Positions 2,606 through 46,628 of a stretch of 64,000 bases of DNA are shown here, piece by piece. Numbering within the stretch: position 1 is the first letter of the stretch; each line of letters starts with the position of its first letter. Source of the DNA: Methylotenera sp. (lineage in GTDB: Bacteria > Pseudomonadota > Gammaproteobacteria > Burkholderiales > Methylophilaceae); the NCBI GenBank assembly GCA_009693255.1, contig SHXQ01000002.1:1-64000 (forward strand). Reading direction: 5' to 3'. Both the position numbers and the translations under genes were made by a program. The notes below the pieces were generated by a model, which did not search any database, was not told the DNA's origin, and was given only the letters and a program-made list of their open reading frames with translations.

Positions 2606-5053
2606 TTAATTTCTGATAGTTAACGCTAAACGCTTGCTTGCTCTTTGGTGACTTTTTTTAGATTTAGTCGGTTTGGCTGGATTTCTAGCCCTGGCTTTTT
2701 CCGCTAATTTTGGCTTTGCGCCTAAGGACAATTTTCCAGCGTGTTTCGCTTTGGCTTTTTCACCAAAATGAGCGCTGGATTTTACAGGTTTTTGCTCGCC
2801 TGCGCGTGATTTATTACCCACCCACGGTTTATGGGGTTCAACATTAACACAATCTTCTAAATTATTGTTTTTATTGACTAAAGAAAAATCTATCTTAGTG
2901 GTTTCTAAATCGACTCGCGCCACTTTAATCGTTAACCTGTCGCCTAGTTGGTAGCGCACCCCGGTACGCTCACCGGCCATTTCATGGCGGGCTTTGTCGT
3001 AATGGAAGTAATCATTGCCCAACTCAGTTACATGCAATAAGCCCTCAACATAGACACCATCTAAGGCGACAAACAAACCAAAACTAGTGACGCCGGCCAC
3101 CGTGCCTTCAAACACCTCGCCAATTTTATCTTGCATGTAAAAGCATTTAAGCCAGTTGGTCACATCACGCGTGGCGTCATCGGCGCGGCGCTCGGTCATC
3201 GAGCACTGGGTGCCCAATTGGCTCCAATCGCCGGCCTTGTATTTTTCACCGTGTAGCACCGCTTTAATAGCACGATGAATCAGCAAGTCTGGGTAACGGC
3301 GTATCGGTGAGGTAAAGTGCGCATACGCCTCGTAAGCCAGCCCAAAGTGACCGAGGTTATCCGGGCTATACACTGCTTGCTGCATAGAGCGCAACAACAC
3401 GGTTTGCAATAACTGCGCATCTGGGCGCGGTCTAATTTTGTCTAATAATTTACCGTAATCTTTAGCGTGCGGCTTATCGCCGCCACCGACACCAAAGCCA
3501 AACTCGGCCATAAAAGTGCGCAATAGCTCGAGTTTTTCTGGGGTTGGGCCTTCATGCACGCGGTATAAGGCGGGGTGCTCATGGGTATGTAAGAAATCTG
3601 CCGCACAGACATTGGCCGCCAACATACACTCTTCAATCAATTTATGCGCTTCATTTCTATGGCTAGGCACGATGCTGTCGATTTTGCCATTATCATTAAA
3701 CACCATAATGGTTTCAGAGGTTTCAAACTCAATGGCACCGCGCTTTTCGCGCTGCGTGAGCATGAGCTGATAAACACTTTGTAAATGCTGCAGATGTGGC
3801 ATTAGCCAAGCATATTCTTGGGCCAATTCGGCGTCTGGGTGTTGCAAAATCTCATGCACTTGCGTGTAAGTCATGCGCGCTTTTGAGCGCATGACGGAGG
3901 GGTAAAACTTATATTGTTTGACGACGCCTAGGCCATCCACCTGCATATCACAAATCATGCACAAGCGCTCTACATCAGGGTTGAGCGAGCACAAGCCGTT
4001 AGATAAAGCCTCAGGCAACATCGGAATTACACGGCGCGGAAAATACACCGAGTTACCTCTATCATAGGCCCCGGTATCTAATGCATCCTTAGGCTTCACA
4101 TAAAAACTCACATCAGCAATCGCGACGACTAAACGCCAACCTTTGCCTTGTGGTTCAGCATAAACGGCATCATCAAAGTCCCGTGCGGTTTCGCCATCTA
4201 TGGTAATCAGCGCCATGTCACGACAATCAATCCGATTTTTGTAATCGCTCGCTTGGACTAATTTAGGGTAGGACTCTGCTAGCGCCACCACCTCTTTGCT
4301 AAATTCATGCGGTAAATTATGTTTACGCAGGGCAATTTCAATTTCCATGCCGCTATCAGCATAATTGCCTAATATCTCCACCACTTTTCCCATCGGTTGG
4401 GCATGAGCTGACGGTTGCGCGGTCAATTCCACCATCACCACTTGGCCGGCTTTAGCCTTCATATCCAAATGATAAGGGATCAATATATCTAAATTGATGC
4501 GCTTATCTTCTGCCGCCACTATCGTCACGCCACTGGTCTGCATGACCCGACCAACCAGCGTTTGCGTGCGTCGTTCTAGCACTTCAACCAACTTACCTTC
4601 AGGCCGCCCTCTTCTGTCTAAGCCGCTCATACGCGCCATGGCGCGGTCGCCATGCATCACTTGCGACATTTCTTTAGGACTTAAAAATAAGTCCTCGCCA
4701 TTACATTTGCCTTTATCATCAGGAATTAAAAAGCCAAAGCCATCAGGATGCCCTTGCACCACGCCAGAAATCAAATCGAGCTTATCGGCAATACACAGCG
4801 CGCCTTTTCTATTTTTAATAATCTGTCCTTGGCGCTCCATGGCGTTAAGGCGCTTATTAAAAATGTCACGCTCGTCATCATTAATGCCTAACAGCACATA
4901 CAGTTGCTCAACACTGACCGGCGCGCACTGCTCAGTCATGGTGCTGAGCACCACCTCACGGCTAGGTAGCGGCGTATCGTAGCGACTGGCCTCACGCTCA
5001 GCGTGTGGGTCATTCATGCGTTTATGGTGGTGCGTTTTTTTTGTCATTGACAA
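2606..5053 (-). CDS. rnr: Ribonuclease R
   Basis: Processive 3'-to-5' exoribonuclease that degrades structured RNA and takes part in RNA quality control. The 815-residue product carries an N-terminal winged-helix/cold-shock region, a central RNB catalytic domain with the acidic signature DGETARDFDDA near residue 285 (metal-binding aspartates), the PDLLIHRAIKAVL segment near 585, and a C-terminal S1 domain near 640-725 (VFEGTVAGVTSFGLFVALDG). The last 85 residues are rich in lysine and arginine, typical of RNase R and thought to help RNA and ribosome binding. First gene of the rnr-rlmB pair. Confidence 0.97.
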   Translation of the reverse strand: MSMTKKTHHHKRMNDPHAEREASRYDTPLPSREVVLSTMTEQCAPVSVEQLYVLLGINDDERDIFNKRLNAMERQGQIIKNRKGALCIADKLDLISGVVQGHPDGFGFLIPDDKGKCNGEDLFLSPKEMSQVMHGDRAMARMSGLDRRGRPEGKLVEVLERRTQTLVGRVMQTSGVTIVAAEDKRINLDILIPYHLDMKAKAGQVVMVELTAQPSAHAQPMGKVVEILGNYADSGMEIEIALRKHNLPHEFSKEVVALAESYPKLVQASDYKNRIDCRDMALITIDGETARDFDDAVYAEPQGKGWRLVVAIADVSFYVKPKDALDTGAYDRGNSVYFPRRVIPMLPEALSNGLCSLNPDVERLCMICDMQVDGLGVVKQYKFYPSVMRSKARMTYTQVHEILQHPDAELAQEYAWLMPHLQHLQSVYQLMLTQREKRGAIEFETSETIMVFNDNGKIDSIVPSHRNEAHKLIEECMLAANVCAADFLHTHEHPALYRVHEGPTPEKLELLRTFMAEFGFGVGGGDKPHAKDYGKLLDKIRPRPDAQLLQTVLLRSMQQAVYSPDNLGHFGLAYEAYAHFTSPIRRYPDLLIHRAIKAVLHGEKYKAGDWSQLGTQCSMTERRADDATRDVTNWLKCFYMQDKIGEVFEGTVAGVTSFGLFVALDGVYVEGLLHVTELGNDYFHYDKARHEMAGERTGVRYQLGDRLTIKVARVDLETTKIDFSLVNKNNNLEDCVNVEPHKPWVGNKSRAGEQKPVKSSAHFGEKAKAKHAGKLSLGAKPKLAEKARARNPAKPTKSKKSHQRASKRLALTIRN

Positions 5054-5109
5054 AACTACCCTTTACTATAAAATTTAAAGCGACTTTTGCTTCATCGCAA
5101 AAGCACTAA

Positions 5110-5194
5110 GCCCAGATGGCGGAATTGGTAGACGCGCATGGTTCGGGTCCATGTGCCTTAGGCTGTGGGGGCTCGGGTCCTCTTCTGGGTACCA
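5110..5194 (+). tRNA. tRNA-Leu-like gene with CGG anticodon (aberrant)
   Basis: The 85-nt sequence folds as a class II tRNA: acceptor 5110-5116 with 5184-5190, D arm with GGAATTGGTAGACGC as in tRNA-Leu, anticodon stem 5137-5141 with 5149-5153 (perfect), long variable arm, T stem 5167-5171 with 5179-5183, discriminator A at 5191 and encoded CCA. The body is leucine type, but the anticodon at 5144-5146 reads CGG, which decodes the proline codon CCG; the usual leucine version is CAG. The T loop is CTCGGGT instead of TTCRANT, the T stem has two G-T pairs, and pair 1:72 is G-T. It is either a decaying tRNA gene or a functional missense tRNA. Confidence 0.72.
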
Positions 5195-5245
5195 GCATTC
5201 TAAACCCCTTGAAGTACATTATCGCACTATTTCTGGCTACGACAT

Positions 5246-5424
5246 TTACATTTTACAGCGGCTAGAAAAGACACGCACCACCATGTCTGGCAGGGCATTG
5301 CGCATGATCGTCAGCGCGGCCGCGCCATTGTCGGTCTCAAGCACCTCATAACAGGCATTCAAGCTTAGGCGGATGAGTTACGCAGATTTGAGTGGTCATC
5401 GACAATCAATATCTTTTTCACCAT
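5246..5424 (-). pseudogene. Response-regulator receiver-domain relic
   Basis: Reading leftward from an ATG at 5424, the sequence encodes MVKKILIVDDHSNLRNSSA followed by a stop. The first beta strand and acidic pair (ILIVDDH) are those of a CheY-like receiver. In another frame, from about 5362 to 5249, it continues as LNACYEVLETDNGAAALTIM and then RNALPDMVV, matching the second strand, second helix and the stretch just before the phosphorylated aspartate. The reading then loses similarity and hits a stop at about 5246. So the remnant is frame-shifted, has an early stop and lacks the phospho-acceptor and everything after it. No full-length copy is seen nearby. Confidence 0.7.
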
Positions 5425-5606
5425 AAGCCATTTTACGTTTAGTGTGACTGCCCAGCATAGATAATAACTAGCACATTACACGAAATTTGATAAAATTAAC
5501 ATCAGCCTACCAGGCTTTAAGCATAATATTTATGCCGCCAATGGTAAAATAAGCGTGCCATAGCATGGCGGTCTAGTAGCAAGAGAATTGTTAAAGGAGT
5601 CTGGCG

Positions 5607-5822
5607 ATGTCACAAAACATAGTATTTGAGTTAAGCACGGCCTATATTGCGCTGTGCAACCTGCTTAAATTAGTCGGCTTGGCCGATAGTGGCGGCCGCG
5701 GAAAAACCATGGTGGCAGAGGGTTTAGTGCAGGTTGATGGTGTCGTTGAGACTAGAAAAACCGCTAAAATTCGTCGCGGTCAAACGGTACAAGTGGCTGG
5801 CCACTTAATCACAGTGAAATAA
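5607..5822 (+). CDS. Small S4-domain RNA-binding protein (YbcJ-like)
   Basis: A 71-residue protein consisting almost entirely of one S4 fold: the LVGLADSGGRGKTMVAEG segment near residues 22-39 and VQVDGVVETRKTAKIRRGQT near 41-60 are typical S4 RNA-binding positions. Small stand-alone S4 proteins such as E. coli YbcJ bind RNA, and their targets are not well defined. The start is supported by AAGGAG about 9 bases upstream (5595-5600). It stands alone and converges on infA. Confidence 0.88.
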   Translation: MSQNIVFELSTAYIALCNLLKLVGLADSGGRGKTMVAEGLVQVDGVVETRKTAKIRRGQTVQVAGHLITVK

Positions 5823-46543: not shown

Positions 46544-46628
46544 TGGTGCCGACGGAGAGACTCGAACTCTCACGACCTAAGTCACAACCACCTCAAGGTT
46601 GCGTGTCTACCAATTCCACCACGACGGC
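46544..46628 (-). tRNA. tRNA-Leu (GAG)
   Basis: An 85-nt class II tRNA on the minus strand with acceptor GCCGTCG, D arm TGGAATTGGTAGACAC, anticodon stem CAACC/GGTTG, anticodon GAG, a long variable arm, normal T loop TTCGAGT and encoded CCA. It follows secG in the tpiA-secG-tRNA-Leu order common in betaproteobacteria and shows how a normal Leu tRNA of this genome looks next to the aberrant one at 5110-5194. Confidence 0.96.

Follow-up and report, generated by a model that had tools for sequence, protein, structure and literature searches.

Auxiliary tRNAs with C34 that are not needed for decoding are often lost from bacterial genomes, and mutation of the anticodon is among the named routes by which they change (Wald and Margalit 2014, PMC4041420; Leu-CAG is not named in the pertinent passages). 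Anticodon shifts have also been traced by synteny, as tRNA genes in orthologous position that carry another identity and are also altered at position 72 (PMC3923123). The middle anticodon base is the commonest site of change among the identity shifts of that study, 30 of 31 of which are eukaryotic. A survey from 2013 found tRNAs that are nearer to genes with other anticodons in 8 of 416 bacterial species; these cases were interpreted there as adaptive, and tRNAs with low scores were set aside as pseudogenes (PMC3868979). Several species of Streptomyces and Kitasatospora contain tRNA-ProX, in which a proline body carries the anticodon of Ala, Asn or Thr and is served by the dedicated synthetase ProRSx (PMC10365949, PMC11415595). 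Finally, mistranslating tRNA-Ser variants with a proline anticodon have been engineered and selected in laboratory yeast, where loop and G:U changes damp their activity (PMC6827378).

The window examined in this study, a stretch of 64,000 nucleotides from Methylotenera sp., a methanol-using freshwater bacterium, contains a tRNA gene that can be compared with each of these systems. As in the documented auxiliary tRNA losses, a dispensable C34 tRNA appears to be affected, but we observe an intermediate with an altered anticodon instead of clean absence. Like the syntenic shifts, the gene sits in an orthologous position and has a different middle anticodon base and a change at position 72, but its T loop is also damaged. 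It resembles tRNA-ProX in being a bacterial tRNA whose body and anticodon belong to different identities; the proline body, the set of anticodons, the spread over several species and the dedicated synthetase have no counterpart here. The yeast variants similarly combine a class II body, a proline anticodon and loop and G:U changes, but they are laboratory products and derive from tRNA-Ser rather than tRNA-Leu. We consider it probable (approximately 0.74) that the Methylotenera gene is a tRNA-Leu(CAG) gene caught early in loss: dispensable, recently released from constraint and a young pseudogene-to-be. It would thus show an auxiliary tRNA on its way from full function to deletion, flanked by close relatives in which the gene is either intact or deleted.

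Identity of the Gene

The assembly (G000; 1.40 Mb in 24 contigs, 84.7% complete) carries the gene on a contig of 159 kb. ARAGORN calls a tRNA-Pro(CGG) at positions 5110–5194 of the plus strand, a label that we take to be read off the anticodon, as is the behavior of this program. The Rfam tRNA model aligns over the full length of the gene with 38.3 bits, relative to a gathering score of 29. The gene is missing from default, fast-filtered Rfam scans despite this score, and such scans may under-report diverged tRNAs. The sequence reads as a leucine-type body with a long variable arm, a leucine D arm and A73 (tRNA position numbers are our own assignment), and CCA is encoded at 5192–5194. These features had been described in a first-pass annotation of the window, and they are borne out by 93% identity to the tRNA-Leu(CAG) found at the same locus in the nearest relatives.

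In most of the Methylophilaceae loci examined, tRNA-Leu(CAG) lies divergently upstream of rnr. The gene at 5110–5194 has the same placement relative to the ribonuclease R gene at 2606–5053 (minus strand), which is identified by synteny and by its Pfam domains OB_RNB, CSD2, RNB and S1. A SpoU-family rRNA methyltransferase gene, presumably rlmB, lies at 1844–2596 on the same strand as rnr (Pfam SpoU_methylase and SpoU_sub_bind). The matches of the tRNA in genus mates are tRNA-Leu(CAG) genes, with 89–93% identity for one form and 78–79% for a second form that has a different anticodon stem and variable arm. Since the gene occupies the same place divergent from rnr and matches tRNA-Leu(CAG), it is an orthologue of tRNA-Leu(CAG) and not a proline tRNA by descent. 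The label "tRNA-Pro" shows how naming by anticodon can mislead.

The anticodon CGG (5144–5146, plus strand; ARAGORN and alignment) departs from the CAG of this auxiliary tRNA at its middle base, which is G at 5145 and A in relatives (A35G). All 29 relatives' loci put to ARAGORN read CAG. A larger set of 141 loci, in which genomes recur, gave 128 CAG calls and no CGG, in line with the CAG that the first-pass annotation gave for related genes, and CGG is also absent from a collection of 80 named loci. L133 and L166, which are closest to the window on the basis of rnr, both contain an ordinary CAG gene. On the rnr tree, L133 groups with Methylotenera despite its title "Sulfuritalea", and L192, titled "Streptomycetaceae", sits inside Methylophilaceae.

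A pattern combining a leucine body with CGG matched one of 52 genus genomes, namely this one. A form stricter by one position matched no stretch in genome_contigs, where the record itself was possibly excluded, and none in viral_contigs. Hence, unlike tRNA-ProX, the mismatched anticodon shows no conservation across species in these collections. With CAG in place of CGG, the stricter pattern was present in 260 of 398 phylum genomes, so in about one-third of them the gene is either lacking or overlooked by the pattern. A pattern looser by one position that also allows CAG found at least 120 matches in viral contigs; a viral source of the CGG tRNA was rejected because the CGG pattern had no viral match. 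A plasmid search for the locus returned 63 partial-match records, none covering 80% of the query (five rows examined).

Occurrence in a single metagenome assembly is what a sequencing or binning artefact would produce. An artefact would have to account for six separate changes that fall within 85 bases on a contig of 159 kb and leave every scored pair unbroken, in a genome that shares 24 of its 31 other tRNAs exactly with a relative. We therefore regard this explanation as very improbable.

The gene is preceded by a sigma-70-like promoter (TTGACA-16-TAAAAT, 5047–5074, plus strand) that matches the consensus at 11 of 12 positions. The promoter scan returned two sites, relative to 0.4 expected in shuffled sequences, and no terminator-like site. 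The promoter-like sequence is similar in the two relatives compared. Downstream, some 400 bases (5195–5606) contain no convincing gene; a 38-residue minus-strand reading frame at 5246–5362 looks on inspection like part of the receiver domain of a response regulator and is perhaps a remnant. A 71-residue reading frame at 5607–5822 (plus strand) resembles, also by eye, the small S4-domain RNA-binding protein YbcJ. Inspection by eye places sequence related to this reading frame after the promoter in six of seven relatives that lack the tRNA.

Position and Effect of the Changes

Relative to the form common to L133 and L166, the gene contains six changes: A35G, a G to C change in the variable arm, A51G, T54C, A58G and C72T. 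By this comparison, they arose on the gene's own terminal branch. A51G (5169) converts A51:U63 to G51:U63, and C72T (5190) converts G1:C72 to G1:U72. T54C (5172) and A58G (5176) turn the T loop (5172–5178) into CTCGGGT, and the G to C change at 5163 adds one pair to the variable-arm stem GCC-TTA-GGC (5155–5163; all on the plus strand). The first-pass annotation had described the differences as transitions and had pointed to G-T pairs in the T stem and at 1:72. Five of the six changes are indeed transitions, and the variable-arm change is a transversion; G51:U63 and G1:U72 are new, whereas the G-T pair 49:65 is ancestral.

All 23 scored cloverleaf pairs are present, one more than the 22 that form in the relatives' version. 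Six changes without net loss of pairs do not have the look of heavy decay, yet this outcome is not significant: between 10 and 14% of simulated random six-change sets also lose no pairs on balance, so that kept pairing alone is no proof of selection.

The other 31 tRNAs of the genome provide a second reference. Compared with the best copy among loci from G015, G020 and part of G031, 24 are identical, and the remaining seven differ by one (Ala, Lys-CTT), two (Cys, Glu), three (Asp, Val-GAC) or seven bases (Leu-CAA). In the five of these seven that were inspected (Leu-CAA, Asp, Val-GAC, Cys and Glu), the changes spare the anticodon as well as positions 54 and 58 and fall mostly in stems. The seven differences of tRNA-Leu(CAA) (L022; G000 C3:149716-149802) from the single G020 copy are located in the variable arm, T stem and acceptor stem and are mostly paired. 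Because this presumably working tRNA carries seven changes, the count alone is no mark of decay; judging from these sequences, the positions of the changes are.

T54 and A58 are kept in all 31 other tRNAs, in contrast to C54 and G58 at 5110–5194. The full set T54-T55-C56-A58 is found in 30 of them; the T loop of Thr-GGT reads TCCGATT. Among the relatives, 127 of 128 CAG calls (31 distinct sequences, as genomes recur) have the T loop TTCGAGT, which upholds the earlier reading that T54 and A58 have been lost. The sole exception is a degenerate gene, L178, discussed below. An intact tRNA-Leu(GAG) at 46544–46628 (minus strand; ARAGORN and comparison with relatives) served as a control within the window.

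At minimum energy, the bare RNA of the gene is not predicted to adopt a cloverleaf (z = −0.06). Two controls, L034 (the sequence of the nearest relatives, z = −1.20) and L057 (z = −1.24), are predicted to fold into cloverleaves; a third, the presumably working L046, is not (z = −1.44). With one of three controls also lacking the cloverleaf, the predictions lean weakly toward damage.

Charging Determinants and the Meaning of CCG

Leucine identity in E. coli depends on A73, A15-U48, G18G19, A20a and also U54:A58, and not on the anticodon, according to a review (PMC9976931). This supports, for E. coli, the premise of the first-pass annotation that leucyl-tRNA synthetase is indifferent to the anticodon. 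In the gene at 5110–5194, A73, A15-U48, G18G19 and A20a are kept, and U54:A58 is lost.

The first-pass annotation had proposed on this basis that the tRNA, if expressed and charged, would insert leucine at CCG. In an attenuated version of this idea, LeuRS would charge the tRNA weakly via A73 and the D loop, some leucine would appear at CCG, and the C54-G58 T loop together with the G:U pairs would hold mistranslation at a tolerable level. The retained leucine determinants, the promoter-like site and the encoded CCA speak for such activity, and A51G, T54C, A58G and C72T can be likened to the damping changes reported for the yeast variants (PMC6827378). If so, the gene would be the equivalent in nature of those laboratory-selected, damped mistranslators. 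The loss of U54:A58 and the occurrence in one assembly argue against this scenario, and so does the meaning of CCG codons in this genome. In 50 reading frames orthologous to G020, 138 CCG codons were compared, of which 129 aligned with Pro and two with Leu, similar to CCA (203 of 223 with Pro), CCT (166 of 176) and CCC (110 of 115). In 36 reading frames compared with G015, Pro was found in 95 of 104 cases and Leu in none. These reading frames were mechanical predictions covering 458 kb of this genome and 306–320 kb per relative, and the alignment is blind to misreading at the percent level. Since CCG aligns with Pro as often as other Pro codons do, we can rule out a change of the code from Pro to Leu; an identity-changing anticodon can evidently occur in a bacterial genome without a code change.

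Codon usage does not single out CCG either. The log odds for CCG are 0.30 (G020) and 0.32 (G015), relative to 0.04 to 0.39 and −0.10 to 0.49, respectively, for the other seven four-fold boxes. Avoidance as well as specific enrichment of CCG were therefore rejected, as its rise is about that of other G-ending codons. Taken with the dispensability of the gene in the family, discussed below, these observations do not support the proposed insertion of leucine at CCG, and we consider even the attenuated form unlikely, although it is the strongest rival to gene loss.

The same gene could conceivably have been recruited as a proline tRNA. ProRS would recognize G35, G36 and A73, and the tRNA would supply an otherwise missing proline tRNA for CCG. 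The Pro tRNAs found besides 5110–5194 are UGG and GGG, with no second Pro(CGG) tRNA in this assembly, and CCG is used more often than in two relatives. A Pro(CGG) pattern search in the 52 genus genomes matched nothing other than GGG forms, which occurred in 30 of them; the pattern would miss variants. Proline determinants listed in the same review are G72, G35, A37, G36, A73 and G15-C48, with G37, G49 and U17a as additional determinants of E. coli tRNA-Pro(CGG) (PMC9976931). The gene presents G35, G36, A73, G37 and G49, which would favor recognition, but U72 and A15-U48 stand in place of G72 and G15-C48. Furthermore, the rise of CCG is matched by other G-ending codons, and Pro(UGG) is present and can wobble. 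A long variable arm is foreign to tRNA-Pro. A ProRSx-like partner was not apparent, as the 85%-complete genome contains one ProRS over the cut-off and no second copy. Recruitment for proline is thus quite improbable.

Absence and Degeneration of tRNA-Leu(CAG) in the Family

The preferred reading, an early stage of gene loss, draws on the fate of the same locus elsewhere. Among the 80 named loci, 66 contain a full CAG gene, 11 contain no tRNA, one is degenerate (L178), one is cut by a contig end (L149) and one does not cover the position (L206). The tRNA-less loci fall into four separate groups on the rnr tree: L135–L138 with L142; L139 with L141; L154; and L170 with L176 and L196. The tree was built by a quick method with midpoint root, and the four groups are read assuming loss without regain; an automated count, which ignores rows in no group, gives two changes. 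L135–L138 and L142 are sister to the three-member clade of the window (SH-aLRT 99 for the eight). L178 (reverse strand, about 2340–2425), which groups with Candidatus Methylopumilus on this tree, carries a further tRNA-Leu(CAG) at the rnr locus that has degenerated independently, with changes in the D loop and T loop and a 3′ end of TATCA instead of CACCA.

Within the genus, 17 genomes gave no match to the CAG pattern. The rnr locus was recovered from 11 of these: seven lack the tRNA, two contain a CAG gene whose variant D stem had escaped the pattern, and two are cut. The remaining six had no rnr match and are uninformative. Absence here means absence at the rnr locus; whole-genome searches also gave only weak matches for four of the seven (G002, G006, G021 and G027), and G063, G067 and G075 were judged by pattern alone. 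The seven overlap in part with the assemblies behind the named loci (e.g., L097 and L141). A −10-like sequence remains at the locus in all seven. From these sequences we conclude that the gene is missing or degraded at this locus in several other lineages of the family. Genome streamlining has been described for Methylophilaceae (PMC6794327), in passages that do not mention tRNAs.

Together with the loss of the T-loop pair, this distribution favors decay, which the first-pass annotation had raised as the alternative to mistranslation. Points against decay are that the promoter-like site persists, that CCA is still encoded and that no scored cloverleaf pair is lost; any decay is slight.

How the gene may have become dispensable is suggested by the other leucine tRNAs of the genome (GAG, CAA, UAG and UAA); an ordinary tRNA-Leu(CAG) was not found in the 85%-complete assembly. 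CUG would be read by tRNA-Leu(UAG) via wobble, and selection on the CAG gene would have lapsed. We considered cmo5U34 on tRNA-Leu(UAG) as the reason for dispensability and rejected it, since CmoB (TIGR00452) reaches the cut-off in none of the 52 genus genomes. Ordinary U:G wobble or another modification must therefore serve tRNA-Leu(UAG). The wobble-U modification of this tRNA is, across the genus, either made without CmoB or absent.

Age of the Changes and Base Composition

Once selection had lapsed, mutations would have built up, pushed toward G and C by the higher G+C of the lineage. One of them would have created the CGG anticodon and two would have destroyed U54:A58, with the likely result of a transcript that folds and charges poorly. 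The anticodon and T-loop changes may be independent, or the latter may have been favored because they silence a harmful tRNA. The likeness to the yeast damping changes also fits silencing, and T-loop damage may have followed the anticodon change for this reason.

The third-position record of rnr allows an estimate of age. Four-fold sites of this gene differ at 143 of 298 positions from L133 (48%) and at 152 of 294 from L166. Rough arithmetic, which assigns half of a Jukes-Cantor pair distance of 0.77 to this branch and multiplies it by 85, gives about 30 expected changes for a tRNA that has been neutral since the split, in contrast to the six observed. Constraint has therefore lapsed recently or partly remains, and from the sequence the CGG tRNA may retain weak residual activity.

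The direction of change is that of the genome. G-ending codons are commoner here in all eight four-fold boxes relative to G020 and in seven of eight relative to G015, and the compared stretches have a GC content of 44.8%, relative to 42.3 and 42.1% in the two relatives. Where four-fold sites of rnr differ, the window is on the GC side by 71 to 30 (L133) and 80 to 36 (L166). Four of the five transitions in the tRNA are from A:T to G:C, which fits the GC rise of the lineage.
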